A stretch of 62,145 nucleotides of DNA, taken from NCBI GenBank assembly GCA_002898555.1, contig BEHR01000020.1, positions 1 to 62,145 on the forward strand, read 5' to 3'. Below, one piece after another: positions 3,936 to 21,599 of this stretch. Every line of letters starts with the position of its first letter. Within the stretch, counting starts at the first letter, position 1. The position numbers and the translations under genes were made by a program. This DNA is from a bacterium HR15. GTDB taxonomy: Bacteria; Armatimonadota; Fimbriimonadia; Fimbriimonadales; GBS-DC. Under the pieces are notes generated by a model. The model was not told where the DNA came from and made no database searches. It worked only from the letters and a program-made list of their open reading frames with translations.

Positions 3936-4571
3936 ATGGAACTCTATTCTGAACAGCTGGTGTCCTATTTAGAGTCGCTTGTCCCTGAGCGGCATCCCGT
4001 GCTGCAGGAGATGGAGCAACGCGCCGCGGAAACACGCTTTCCCATCGTGGGACCTGTGGTAGGGCAGTTTCTTTATCTGCTCACGCGGCTCACAGGGGCG
4101 CGGCGCGTGTTCGAGATGGGTTCAGGCTTCGGCTACTCCACCGCATGGTTCGCGATGGGCGTGCGCGAGAATGGTGGGGGTGAAGTGTACCATGTGGTGT
4201 GGGATGAGTCGCTCTCGCGCGACGCCCAGGTGTATCTAAGCCGATTAGGGCTGAAGGAGCTGGTGCGCTTCCATGTAAGCGAGGCGGTTGCACAACTTCA
4301 ACAGACGGAAGGGCTGTTCGATATCATTTTCAACGATATCAACAAGGAGCAGTACCCCGATTCGCTTGCCGTGATTAAGCCGAAGTTGCGCAGGGGCGGG
4401 TTGCTGGTGGTTGATAACGCGCTCTGGCATGGGGCGATTTTCGACGAGAGTGACCACTCACCCGCCACCGAAGGGGTGCGCCAGCTCACTCGGATACTCA
4501 CACATGACCCCGACTTTATCTGCAGCCTGATCCCCCTGCGCGACGGCGTGCTGATTGCACAAAGGAGGTAG
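3936..4571 (+). CDS. SAM-dependent O-methyltransferase (family 3, CCoAOMT-like)
   Basis: The protein has 211 residues, the usual length for bacterial family-3 O-methyltransferases. The SAM-binding motif I is VFEMGSGFGYSTAWFA (about residues 58-73). Further on come the acidic motif FDIIFNDINKEQYP and the strand GGLLVVDNALWHG, both typical of the catechol/caffeoyl-CoA OMT fold with its divalent-metal site. These enzymes methylate hydroxyls of small aromatic or hydroxylated molecules. The acceptor is unknown. It is tightly packed between the zinc-ribbon gene (2-nt gap) and the VOC gene (3-nt gap), so it is probably co-transcribed with them. Confidence 0.85.
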   Translation: MELYSEQLVSYLESLVPERHPVLQEMEQRAAETRFPIVGPVVGQFLYLLTRLTGARRVFEMGSGFGYSTAWFAMGVRENGGGEVYHVVWDESLSRDAQVYLSRLGLKELVRFHVSEAVAQLQQTEGLFDIIFNDINKEQYPDSLAVIKPKLRRGGLLVVDNALWHGAIFDESDHSPATEGVRQLTRILTHDPDFICSLIPLRDGVLIAQRR

Positions 4572-9223: not shown

Positions 9224-9883
9224 TTACCGCTTGCGGCGACGCAGCATCAGACCCGCCAGCCCCACGCCCAGTGCCAGCAGGCTCGCAGGCTCCGGCACCC
9301 AGTCCTGCTCCACCAGCAACAGCGACGCCGTGGAGGTGCCCGGTGTTTGCGCGCCGTCGATGTGCAGCAGGAACACCTCGAACACCATGAAGTGGCTCGA
9401 GGGGGTCGACAACGGGAAGAATGCGTTCACGGTAAACGCCCCGTTCGAACCGCCTGGATAAGAGGCACCGCTCCAGACCCAGCTGCCCGTGAACAGCACT
9501 TCGCCCGTGTCCAGATCAATCACCTTCTTGAAGCCGATGACCTGACCAAAATCAAAGACGAAGCCGCTCACCACGAAGTTGAAGCCAACCAGGGGAGCCT
9601 TCGTGCCACTGGTGTCTTGCACGGTGTAGATGCCGGTGAACGCAGCGTTGGTGAAGTTGGTGCCGTTGCCCACCGTGATGGGGGGCGTTGAGGCATTGGT
9701 GTTGAAGGTAACGCTGGGCAGCGGATTCTCTACAACGGTGGTCGGCACTGTCGTGACAACATTACCGGGGTTGAGTATGCCTGTGGAAGTAACGATGGTA
9801 ACATCCCAACCGGACGCCAGCGCACTCGCCGCGAGCGCCGCCGCAGCAACCACTGTAAGCCCATACTTCAATCGCATCATCAT
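9224..9883 (-). CDS. PEP-CTERM sorting-domain exported protein
   Basis: The start at 9883 (MMMRLKYG) is chosen because AGGAGG lies 6 nt upstream. Residues 1-26 form a signal peptide ending near SALASG. The ~165-residue middle is a beta-rich, Thr/Val-rich domain without recognisable catalytic motif. The C-terminus VPEPASLLALGVGLAGLMLRRRKR is a textbook PEP-CTERM signal: VPEP, hydrophobic helix, basic tail. The family is cut and sorted by an exosortase, usually in polysaccharide-producing bacteria; no exosortase gene is in this window. It has its own promoter with three phased repeats upstream. Confidence 0.85.
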   Translation of the reverse strand: MMMRLKYGLTVVAAAALAASALASGWDVTIVTSTGILNPGNVVTTVPTTVVENPLPSVTFNTNASTPPITVGNGTNFTNAAFTGIYTVQDTSGTKAPLVGFNFVVSGFVFDFGQVIGFKKVIDLDTGEVLFTGSWVWSGASYPGGSNGAFTVNAFFPLSTPSSHFMVFEVFLLHIDGAQTPGTSTASLLLVEQDWVPEPASLLALGVGLAGLMLRRRKR

Positions 9884-9960: not shown

Positions 9961-9990
9961 ATTATAGCACATCGATAGCCCGTTTGTCAA
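9961..9990 (-). promoter_or_regulatory. Promoter of the PEP-CTERM gene
   Basis: On the minus strand: TTGACA (9990-9985), 18-nt spacer ending TGTGC, TATAAT (9966-9961), which also gives a TG-n extended -10. The leader is about 75 nt. The layout and several flanking bases match the promoter at 20185-20213. Confidence 0.8.
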
Positions 9991-9998
9991 GGGGTTAA

Positions 9999-10050
9999 GG
10001 GGGAAATTTGGGTTTTTTAGGGGGAAATTCCCCCAGAATCGGGGGAATTT
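9999..10050 (-). promoter_or_regulatory. Three phased GGGGGAAATTT-type repeats upstream of the -35 box
   Basis: On the plus strand GGGGGAAATTT (9999-10009), GGGGGAAATT (10020-10029) and GGGGGAATTT (10041-10050) start exactly 21 bp apart, two helical turns. The block ends 8 bp from the -35 box. The two outer copies also form a palindrome with intervening CCCCC. The block overlaps the last codons of remA. A related block precedes the gene at 20274. Best reading: an operator for an oligomeric DNA-binding protein. Confidence 0.65.
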
Positions 10051-10358
10051 CCCTCCATGAGTTCCCTCTCGTCCTCGTGGAAGGCTGTCTCGACACGGGA
10101 CAGGCGTTTGGCAAGCGTCTCTTGGGAGAGAGCCGATAGCACCACCTGCCCACTGTCTAAGAAGATGACGCAGCGGGTGCGTCGCCCCTGGGTGGCGTCG
10201 ATGAGGCGTGTGCCCTCATGGCGCAGCTGCTGCACCAGCCGTTTGATGGGTGCCGAGTCACTGCGCACCAGCGCGACAATCTTGTGGGTCATCACAAAGT
10301 TATAGAACCCCACATTCAACAGGGGTGGCAGGGCGTTTGGGCGATCTCCGTTTGTCAT
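10017..10358 (-). CDS. remA: RemA/DUF370 extracellular-matrix regulator homologue
   Basis: The core LLNVGFYNFVMTHKIVALV, SAPIKRLVQQ, GTRLIDATQGRRTRCVIFLDS and VVLSALSQETLAKRL aligns throughout with Bacillus subtilis RemA. RemA is a ring-forming DNA-binding protein that activates matrix and osmoprotection genes by binding repeats upstream of promoters. The start is uncertain: the ATG at 10358 gives 113 residues with no clear SD, and the RemA core begins about 13 residues later. The ~25-residue C-terminal tail is longer than in Bacillus, and its last codons lie in the phased repeats. It follows fliA by 46 nt, so the two are probably co-transcribed. Confidence 0.8.
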   Translation of the reverse strand: MTNGDRPNALPPLLNVGFYNFVMTHKIVALVRSDSAPIKRLVQQLRHEGTRLIDATQGRRTRCVIFLDSGQVVLSALSQETLAKRLSRVETAFHEDERELMEGNSPDSGGISP

Positions 10359-10404: not shown

Positions 10405-11166
10405 CTAAACATCGATGGTGCCGCCGAGCAGCTCCCGCATGCGCGCGATGGCACGAGTGTGCAGCTGATAGACGCGCGACTCGGAAATATTGAGCACCTG
10501 TCCAATCTCTTTGAAGGTCAATCCTTCGTAATAGTAGAGGGCGATGACCTTCTGTTCGCGCTCGGAGAGCTGGTTAAACGCCTCGTTCAGGGCGCGGATC
10601 TGCTCGCGCTCTGCCAGCTCCTCGTAGGGGTCCTCGGAGGAAGCCAGCACCTCCACGAGGGAGGTCGGTTCTTCCTCATCGCCGTTGACGATGCACGCCT
10701 CCAGTGAGACCATGTTCGTGCGGGCATAGTCAAGCAGCAGCTGTCGATACTCTTGCAGGCTGATACCCAACGCCTGTGCTGCTTCCTCATCGGTAGGAGG
10801 ACGCCCCAGCCGAGCCTCCAGATGCACCCATGTGCGCTCCAGTTGGCGCAACTTATCCCGTGCGGAGCGTGGCACCCAATCCTCGCTGCGCAGCGCTTCC
10901 AGCACCGCGCCCCGGATGAGGGCAATCGCGTAGGTCTCGAACTTCACATTGCGTGTCGGGTCGAACTGATCGACCGCCTTGATCAGCCCGATGGCGCCAT
11001 GACTATACAGGTCCTCCCAATCCATGCCAGCGGGCGGATAGGGCACGATGCGAGCGACCGTCAACTTGACCAGATGCGCGTACTGCTTGATCAGCTGCTC
11101 ACGCGCCATTAGATCGCCGTAAACCTTGTAGCGTTTCCAAGCCTCCTGAATCTGCAGTGCGTCCAT
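10405..11166 (-). CDS. fliA: RNA polymerase sigma factor FliA/WhiG (sigma28)
   Basis: 253 residues with regions 2, 3 and 4 of the sigma28 class: LVKLTVARI and DLYSHGAIGLIKAVDQFDP (region 2), FETYAIALIRGAVLEALRSEDWVPRS (residues 75-100, split here by function), GRPPTDEEAAQALG (region 3) and LSEREQKVIALYYYEGLTFKEIGQVLNISESRV (region 4 helix-turn-helix). It directs RNA polymerase to late flagellar genes with TAAA-N15/16-GCCGATAA promoters. Such a site lies before the flagellin gene at 44475. No flagellar operon surrounds it; neighbours are a small membrane protein and remA. A GGGAG precedes the ATG. Confidence 0.92.
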   Translation of the reverse strand: MDALQIQEAWKRYKVYGDLMAREQLIKQYAHLVKLTVARIVPYPPAGMDWEDLYSHGAIGLIKAVDQFDPTRNVKFETYAIALIRGAVLEALRSEDWVPRSARDKLRQLERTWVHLEARLGRPPTDEEAAQALGISLQEYRQLLLDYARTNMVSLEACIVNGDEEEPTSLVEVLASSEDPYEELAEREQIRALNEAFNQLSEREQKVIALYYYEGLTFKEIGQVLNISESRVYQLHTRAIARMRELLGGTIDV

Positions 11167-11227: not shown

Positions 11228-11521
11228 TCAGGCGGCGGGTGCGTCAGGCGGCTCTTCGTCGGCGTTGCCCAAATGGTTTGCCAAATTTTTCTTCTCCGAC
11301 CCAGAAAGGTATCCCGGAGAAGAAAAATTTGCTGGGCTTTCGGGTGGCTCGAGGCGGCACATCACAAACGCCCACAATGCCCCGGCTACCCAGCCGACCA
11401 TACCGCCAATCAATCCGCGCAGGGTACATAACAGCGGATCGACCCCTGCCACTATGCCCAACACAAGCACGAGCATGCACCCGATCCCGCCCGTTATGCG
11501 GGGTAAGATTGTCCAGTTCAT
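11228..11521 (-). CDS. Small membrane protein carrying a palindromic-element insertion
   Basis: From the ATG at 11521 the frame gives 97 residues. Residues 1-50 hold two hydrophobic segments (ITGGIGCMLVLVLGIVAG and LIGGMVGWVAGALWAFVM) and look like a real small inner-membrane protein. The C-terminal third is encoded by a 50-bp perfect inverted repeat and has no hydrophobic or conserved character. The best SD (AAGGAGG) fits a different frame opening at MRWDELDN, so the start is unsure. It lies between glgA and fliA on the same strand. Function unknown. Confidence 0.5.
   Translation of the reverse strand: MNWTILPRITGGIGCMLVLVLGIVAGVDPLLCTLRGLIGGMVGWVAGALWAFVMCRLEPPESPANFSSPGYLSGSEKKNLANHLGNADEEPPDAPAA
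11282..11331. repeat. 50-bp palindromic element, copy A (perfect 17-bp arms)
   Basis: Arms CAAATTTTTCTTCTCCG (11282-11298) and CGGAGAAGAAAAATTTG (11315-11331) are exact inverse complements around a 16-nt loop. The left 20 bases match copy B at 36262 with one difference. There is no T-run in the right place for a terminator, and it lies inside a coding frame. Confidence 0.85.
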
Positions 11522-20139: not shown

Positions 20140-20213
20140 GGGGGAATTTGCCCAAAAAAACACAAATTCCCCCCTCTACCCCCCTTGACAAACGCACGAA
20201 AATGTGCTATATA
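20140..20213 (+). promoter_or_regulatory. Promoter plus A/T-G/C repeat block upstream of the exported-protein gene
   Basis: TTGACA (20185-20190), 17-nt spacer ending TGTGC, TATATA (20208-20213). Upstream are GGGGGAATTT (20140-20149), an A-run, then AAATTCCCCCC (20164-20174). Over about 65 bp this matches the region before the PEP-CTERM promoter (9961-10050 read on the minus strand), including the A-run, the CCCC run and TTGACAAACG. The two genes probably share a regulator. Confidence 0.7.
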
Positions 20214-20273: not shown

Positions 20274-21599
20274 ATGATACGACGGAACAATTGGTTAGCT
20301 GCTGGCTTTAGTGTGGCGCTGACGCTGCAGAGCGGCGTGTTATTCGCACAGCTCAAGTCTAATGACACCCCGTCTCCGAATGCTCCTACAGCGGTTCAGG
20401 AGCAGAGCCCTTATGACCTGAACCTGAGTTGGGAGCTGGTTCCTCGTCCTCCAATTAAGTTCACCCCGTTCGATATGGTTGATCCCAACACGGGCAAGCC
20501 TGTCCGACCAGACGATCTCATCGAGGTCAATGGTGTGAAGGTACGGGCGGGCGACTTTTATCGTCGCCTTAACGAAACGGAGCGGTGGCTGAATGCCCAC
20601 GGCTATTCACTGCGCACAGATACTCGCTTCGAGTACTTCTCGCCGGAACTTGAATCGCAGATTGCCGATTCGGAGCGGCGGCTGCGTGAACTGGAGCAGA
20701 AGATGCCTATTGAAGGAGAACCCACAGAGAACACTTTTGTCCCTGCAGCCTGCACGGGCGATAGTCGCTCCTTTGACACAGGCTGGTACGGAAACAGTCT
20801 GTGGGGGATCCGCTTTTATGGGTCAGGCAGCTTTCAGGCATGCCTCGAGGCCCTCTCAGCATCGGCATCAGGGCAGGCGGTGCTTTCCGGACGATTAGCT
20901 AACTTCCAAACAAACATTGCCGATGCTACCGCTAATGCTTCGGGATCCCTTACAATCATCCCGCCCTACTCCTTCGGGCTAAACTATAGTTATGCCGTTA
21001 ATGTACGGGTCTTCGGCAACACGGTTTGGGGACCGAGCGGATCCGGGACCGTACAGGGTCCGTACCAAAACAGTTGGGACTGGCGTATTTTGAGTTACAA
21101 CTGGAGCAGTCCCACTGTGCGGTTAGGATGCGTCTCCATTTTAGGGATCCCTATCTGCTTGGATGGCCAAGTCGGCGTCAATATTGGGCTTAATTTAGCA
21201 GCCAGCGTAGACATTCAGCTGCTTGCTCAAACGGCAACCGCTCGCCCTTATGGGAATGCCACAGGCTGGGCTGCTGCCTGGATTGGCGCTAATGCTGGCA
21301 TAGCTAGGGCGGAAGCTGGTGTGCGCGGTACCCTGAATTTCCTCAGTGGAAGCTTGCAGGGAACCGCTACGGGCAATTTCGCCATCGCCTCCAACTGCCT
21401 CGTTTACAACTTTAATACCCAGCTTGATGCCAACTTGACTGCATTAAGCGGTCAGGTAGATGCTTACGCTCGCGGTTGTATCTGGGTCTTTGGCTGGCGC
21501 TGTGCAGAAGCTAGTTTGCGCCTCTTCTCCTGGAACGGTATCAGTTGGAACAGAACTATAGGCAGCTTCTCGCGCAGCTACAATGTCTACTGCCGGTGA
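20274..21599 (+). CDS. Exported repetitive beta-rich protein
   Basis: 441 residues, with a signal peptide (residues 1-25, cleaved near LFAQ-LK) and a linker. Then comes a short conserved-looking segment, VNGVKVRAGDFYRRLNETER followed by WLNAHGYSLR (residues 84-113). From about residue 150 the protein is Gly/Ala/Ser/Asn-rich and beta-repetitive, with GTATGNFAIAS and LFSWNGISWN near the end and six or more Cys. From memory, the RRLNETERWLNAHGYSL and LFSWNG segments resemble exported proteins of Myxococcota that occur with HEAT-repeat proteins; that needs a search. AGGAGG precedes the ATG. A terminator follows. Confidence 0.7.
   Translation: MIRRNNWLAAGFSVALTLQSGVLFAQLKSNDTPSPNAPTAVQEQSPYDLNLSWELVPRPPIKFTPFDMVDPNTGKPVRPDDLIEVNGVKVRAGDFYRRLNETERWLNAHGYSLRTDTRFEYFSPELESQIADSERRLRELEQKMPIEGEPTENTFVPAACTGDSRSFDTGWYGNSLWGIRFYGSGSFQACLEALSASASGQAVLSGRLANFQTNIADATANASGSLTIIPPYSFGLNYSYAVNVRVFGNTVWGPSGSGTVQGPYQNSWDWRILSYNWSSPTVRLGCVSILGIPICLDGQVGVNIGLNLAASVDIQLLAQTATARPYGNATGWAAAWIGANAGIARAEAGVRGTLNFLSGSLQGTATGNFAIASNCLVYNFNTQLDANLTALSGQVDAYARGCIWVFGWRCAEASLRLFSWNGISWNRTIGSFSRSYNVYCR

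Follow-up and report, generated by a model that had tools for sequence, protein, structure and literature searches.

A lineage-specific promoter module of helically phased A-tracts upstream of a PEP-CTERM gene in the Armatimonadota bacterium HR15

Phased A-tracts that interact with the alpha subunit of RNA polymerase or are coupled to promoters are known from other systems (PMC4081817, PMC9825172). In Bacillus, the protein RemA protects at least six AT-rich 7-bp repeats, which lie 3 bp apart and thus follow a 10-bp period, and it probably reads the minor groove through arginines (PMC8481266). Proteobacterial PEP-CTERM genes, in turn, use sigma54-dependent -24/-12 sites (PMC9850573). At one locus of the bacterium HR15, located in a contiguous stretch of 62,145 bp that was analyzed as a whole (the window), a repeat array overlaps the 3' end of a remA-like gene and precedes a PEP-CTERM gene (Table 1). 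A preliminary description had proposed that RemA controls the PEP-CTERM gene via these repeats. The current analysis shows that the feature is a real lineage-specific promoter module and a variant of the known helically phased A-tract promoters.

Table 1. Features of the two array loci in the window
Feature	Coordinates	Strand	Remarks
PEP-CTERM protein gene	9224..9883	-	PF07589, TIGR02595; likely start 9883 after AAAGGAGG
-10 box TATAAT, extended (TG), 18-bp spacer	9961..9966	-	sigma70 consensus match
-35 box TTGACA	9985..9990	-	part of 12/12 consensus promoter
Helically phased A/T-tract - C/G-tract array	9999..10058	-	template score 0.64, p=0.001; overlaps remA 3' end
RemA-like (DUF370, PF04025) gene	10017..10358	-	sole copy in genome
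Perfect 13-bp inverted repeat within array	10022..10053		RNA hairpin -28.7 kcal/mol, no U-tract
FliA/WhiG-type sigma factor gene	10405..11166	-	upstream of remA
Second array (GGGGGAATTTGCCCAAAAAAACACAAATTCCCCC)	20140..20173	+	phase template p=0.004
Promoter TTGACA-N17-TATATA after second array	20185..20213	+
441-aa protein gene downstream of second array	20274..21599	+	signal-peptide-like N terminus

The array and its physical character

The array consists of three GGGGGAAATT-like units, GGGGGAAATTT, GGGGGAAATTC and GGGGGAATTTC, whose starts at positions 9999, 10020 and 10041 agree with those first noted, and the unit nearest to the promoter stops 8 bp short of the -35 box, as had been claimed. 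On the promoter strand it reads GGAGGGAAATTCCCCCGATTCTGGGGGAATTTCCCCCTAAAAAACCCAAATTTCCCCCTTAACCCC-TTGACA, and the core promoter matches the consensus at all 12 positions. The downstream gene, with a longest open reading frame from 9940, encodes a protein with a C-terminal PEP-CTERM sorting domain, according to both profile matches. The reported 21-bp phasing is exact with respect to spacing, but 21 bp corresponds to two units; further A/T-tracts are located between the three copies (TTTTTT at 10013-10018 and the weaker AGAATC at 10035-10040), and the basic repeat is therefore one helical turn rather than two. An exact triple of units is present once in the window and in none of 200 first-order Markov windows. 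When one mismatch was allowed, 14 unit matches were found versus 6.1 expected, a number that none of 100 shuffles reached, and the 10.5-bp A/T periodicity of the array (3.73; shuffle mean, 0.38) was equaled by none of 1,000 shuffles.

The perfect inverted repeat within the array probably results as a side effect of the alternation of the tracts. The reverse relationship, with an RNA hairpin that mainly ends or stabilizes the remA transcript and the repeats as its by-product, is very improbable. The hairpin is indeed stable (-28.7 kcal/mol; z, -3.6) and located at the remA stop codon, but it lacks a U-tract, was not flagged as a terminator, and array promoters elsewhere have neither such a hairpin nor a remA neighbor.

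The physical character of the element was assessed with 21 array promoters; as the last unit served as the criterion for their collection, only the turns further upstream provide an independent periodicity signal. Their A/T fraction oscillates with a period of 10.25 to 10.5 bp in a fixed register with the -35 box, and the power of this periodicity amounts to 2.05 versus 0.39 in shuffles (maximum, 0.65) and 0.14 in the class B promoters described below. The A/T-tracts of about 5 bp are centered about 6, 16, 26, 37, 47, 58, and 68 bp upstream of the -35 box, and a typical array comprises three to six turns. The A/T maxima recur with each helical turn from the -35 box and correspond to about -43, -52, and -63 relative to the start site, which is the spacing known for the binding of the alpha C-terminal domain. 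A wedge model predicts clear curvature for most arrays and none for class B promoters (L/d, 1.124 versus 1.037) and a value of 1.20 for the window promoter, which none of 300 shuffles attained; the predicted curvature is weak at some array promoters, e.g., the site on contig 40 (C40) and one in a relative (G007b). The arrays hence share helical spacing, fixed phase, and predicted curvature with helically phased A-tract promoters. An A/T-rich proximal UP subsite adjoining the -35 box was not found: the last 3 bp before the box are 0 to 10% A/T, a CCCC stretch lies next to it, and only a weaker A/T peak is located at -8 to -7 relative to it.

In the distal tracts, the identity and orientation of the A/T and C/G bases vary while the alternation of A/T with G/C is kept, a pattern that points to a readout of DNA shape. 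The C/G-tracts are more homopolymeric than the window as a whole (75% versus 43% CC/GG steps), and the proximal region is rich in C (177 C versus 39 G). These two properties suggest some reading of bases and would fit the binding of A-tract/C-tract units by another nucleoid protein or a clade-specific transcription factor, just as the restriction of the arrays to few genera fits a lineage-specific factor. We nevertheless regard such a protein as unlikely, given that the mixed orientations and A/T identities of the distal units imply that there is no fixed base motif and that the arrays lack a linked candidate gene.

Promoter classes and distribution of the array

Genome-wide work was based on pattern searches and on individual sequence stretches. 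The HR15 genome contains 58 TTGACA-N16-19-TATAMT sites versus 1 in the control, and two groups stand out by the upstream DNA of these consensus promoters. About half of the consensus sigma70 promoters (26 by one pattern), including that of rpoB, belong to class B with the element ATTTTYCGAACACCCTC-N3-7-CCCC immediately upstream of TTGACA, e.g., L140+1501 (rpoB), L170, L176, L177, L182, and L189; this element might be bound by a transcription factor or belong to a repeat that carries a promoter. The phased array defines the smaller group. When 57 HR15 promoters were scored with a phase template built from 15 promoters, all of them from other genomes, nine were selected at p<=0.01, and not one of these belongs to the 26 class B promoters. 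The scored set had been supplemented with two known array carriers (window position 20185 and contig 5), and the other seven selected promoters stem from the unselected census. The genes behind the selected promoters include three PEP-CTERM genes (in the window, at the end of contig 1, and on contig 21), a MraZ-like gene, a MerR-like gene, and a pstB leader. The array is absent from housekeeping promoters such as those of rpoB, dnaK, and infC.

Altogether, arrays precede about eight genes in the HR15 genome. The second array of the window is located ahead of a gene whose 441-aa product has no match in Pfam or NCBIfam. On contig 5, three units about 21 bp apart lie ahead of a leader and pstB, and further copies were found, e.g., on contig 8 before the MerR-like gene. 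The site on contig 40, which has a single unit, agrees with the motif, yet it failed the phase test. Pairs of units 9 to 14 bp apart occur four times in the HR15 genome, and the reversed-pattern controls gave none in all 81 genomes. The supposed promoter association of the motif is supported: a genome-wide search addressed the objection that GGGGRAWTT might merely be scattered and found it linked to promoters near TTGACA, with reversed-pattern controls of about zero.

Several other elements were observed in the course of this survey. A leader of about 300 nt starting with GTCRTTGGGGAAAC is located behind array promoters in three genomes (L132, ~4240-4560; L118; L121) and is possibly an undescribed stable RNA; no Rfam family was found for the leader that follows the contig 5 promoter and related array promoters. 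A third promoter-like element, TGTCCGGTTTTGGGCGGATTTTGAGTCATTA, lies ahead of several PEP-CTERM genes, has six exact matches in the genome (control, 0), and is perhaps an alternative-sigma promoter (loci L230-L235, L203, L206, L211, L215, and L216); in three of six promoters with the different core TGTCCG...GAGTCATTA, phased tracts are present upstream. Tandem consensus promoters, two or three within about 200 bp, occur ahead of a single secreted-protein gene (L166, 1463-1680; L198, 3043-3108).

About 25 PEP-CTERM proteins are encoded in the HR15 genome. Array promoters precede about three of their genes, a clear array is missing at the consensus promoter of another one, and about five genes have the third promoter element in common. 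The postulated connection between the array and PEP-CTERM genes accordingly stands only in part, as the array is present at three of the four own PEP-CTERM genes with a consensus promoter and at PEP-CTERM genes in two relatives (G011 and G012), but most PEP-CTERM genes lack it. The enrichment among array promoters is nominal (Fisher p=0.004) when counted by promoter site, with one gene providing three sites, and counting by gene results in small numbers, i.e., three PEP-CTERM genes with an array versus one without.

With respect to the relatives, a search for TGTCAA-N4-18-GGGGRAWTT detected the array in about ten genomes from the genera g1, g2, g4, and g5 of the family to which HR15 belongs, and the control pattern had 2 matches in 81 genomes; scattered single matches outside these genera look like chance. 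The clearest of these arrays, in G012, reads AAATTCCCCCCAACTTCCCCCCAAATTCCCCCCAAATTCCCCTTAACCCC-TTGACA. Arrays precede RHS-like genes in G003, G011, and G017, nrdB-like genes in G007 and G010, and pstB-like leaders in G001 and G004, and these names, like all those of downstream genes outside the window, were obtained by reading translations rather than by profile searches.

RemA and RNA polymerase alpha as candidate readers

The protein encoded next to the array had been addressed as a RemA homologue. It is a member of PF04025 (98 bits), passes this broader model as well as NF003315, and retains the GRRTR arginines, but with 100.5 bits it remains below the NCBIfam cut-off of 140 for the RemA equivalog NF046064; the family assignment is thus sound, the equivalog level is not reached. 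The named proteins closest to it mark the organism as an armatimonadote. The gene order glgA-sigma-remA is retained in G001 and G004. Among the relatives examined, the overlap of the remA 3' end with an array was seen in the HR15 genome only; elsewhere remA is followed by a tRNA gene, unrelated reading frames, or other genes. Synteny of remA and the PEP-CTERM gene was rejected as evidence because the downstream neighbors differ in all relatives examined. A perfect 17-bp inverted repeat (CAAATTTTTCTTCTCCG; window positions 11282-11331) separates the sigma gene from the adjacent reading frame and may be a dispersed repeat, as a similar motif lies upstream of L210.

A RemA-like ring might wrap the array, place arginines into the minor groove at the A-tracts of each turn, and activate the promoters, including that of the PEP-CTERM gene, but also array promoters beyond PEP-CTERM genes. 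Such binding would be physically plausible in view of the 10-bp period of the Bacillus RemA footprints (PMC8481266), the conserved GRRTR arginines of the window protein, and the predicted curvature of the arrays, and nearly all array-bearing genomes have remA. We still consider it rather unlikely: 60 of 81 genomes across the order carry remA, while arrays are confined to part of one family, and remA is unlinked to arrays in the relatives. Arrays and consensus promoters are absent from G002 and G005 of the same family, both of which have a good remA, so arrays do not track remA here or in most of the order. Moreover, the published Bacillus sites are described merely as poorly conserved AT-rich repeats, and the typical three to six turns are fewer than the eight subunits of the ring. 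Co-variation of RemA with the arrays was rejected as evidence, since the differences shared by the array genera are confounded with phylogeny, and a comparison of remA-positive and remA-negative genomes of family f3 by consensus promoters met genomes with almost no such promoters. The comparative evidence supports neither the proposed regulation of the PEP-CTERM gene by RemA nor a RemA regulon that reaches into PEP-CTERM systems, given the variable adjacency, the array-free but remA-positive G002 and G005, the majority of PEP-CTERM genes without an array, and the many array genes that do not encode surface proteins.

The explanation that we favor, and to which we assign an even chance, is a bent, helically phased, UP-like A-tract module that is read by its shape, most likely by RNA polymerase alpha. 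The repeats would form the distal portion of a strong promoter of composite structure, with the tracts on one face of the helix and in constant phase to a near-consensus sigma70 promoter. Their phasing would curve the DNA, the narrow minor grooves would face RNA polymerase, and the extended UP-like element would raise promoter strength by contacts of the alpha C-terminal domain and by upstream wrapping. We infer both the activation by the array and the role of alpha as its reader. Homopolymeric C/G-tracts, which simple UP elements do not need, CCCC rather than A/T beside the -35 box, and the array-free housekeeping promoters argue against this UP-like reading.

In all array genera (g1, g2, g4, and g5), alpha has a basic C-terminal tail (SGRRR and variants); acidic tails are found in the array-free G002 and G005 and in families f2-f5 (rpoA loci compared, L245-L260). 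By sequence comparison, this lineage-specific basic tail is a suggestive link to the arrays, but it is a lead and not a proof, because a single clade represents one evolutionary event. The positions that correspond to K297, K298, and S299 of E. coli differ in the array genera (judged against E. coli and B. subtilis sequences), which counts against alpha as the reader, but they are changed similarly in the array-free G002, so that the loss of K298/S299 was rejected as an array-specific change; among the alpha changes, only the basic tail tracks the arrays. A bolder and doubtful proposal is that, in one Armatimonadota lineage, alpha gained a basic GRRR tail with which it reads a long, helically phased A-tract/C-tract upstream element of a new kind. 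If true, a promoter element and a polymerase subunit changed together, and some of the strong promoters, including those of exosortase-sorted surface proteins, would follow a new code of upstream recognition.

Comparison with known systems

The arrays represent a natural promoter set from a little-studied phylum that is suited for direct tests of phased A-tracts, alpha tails, and DNA-wrapping proteins. These observations also correct the tempting but unsupported idea that the RemA regulon includes PEP-CTERM systems, an idea that stays testable. In the RpoN/PrsK-PrsR system, a shared promoter element likewise co-regulates PEP-CTERM genes, but the HR15 genes use sigma70 promoters with arrays or the third element TGTCCG...GAGTCATTA. 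The RemA sites of Bacillus (eps and tapA) have the approximately 10-bp periodicity upstream of promoters and the possible DNA wrapping in common with the array; unlike the array, they are AT-rich and poorly conserved, and the DNA that is required there lies further upstream. The UP element of E. coli, the site of the alpha C-terminal domain, is likewise located immediately before the -35 box and has the same-face spacing, whereas the array is longer and C-rich instead of A/T-rich beside the -35 box, and the alpha subunits of the array genera have changed DNA-contact residues and a basic tail. Promoters of Synechocystis and the UP-like A-boxes of H. pylori sabA share A/T-tracts at helical-turn intervals, the register with the core promoter, and the predicted curvature (PMC9825172, PMC4081817). 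In contrast to these, the tracts in HR15 and its relatives alternate with homopolymeric C/G-tracts over up to about six turns and are joined to a near-consensus TTGACA/TG-TATAAT core in a discrete promoter subset of one lineage.
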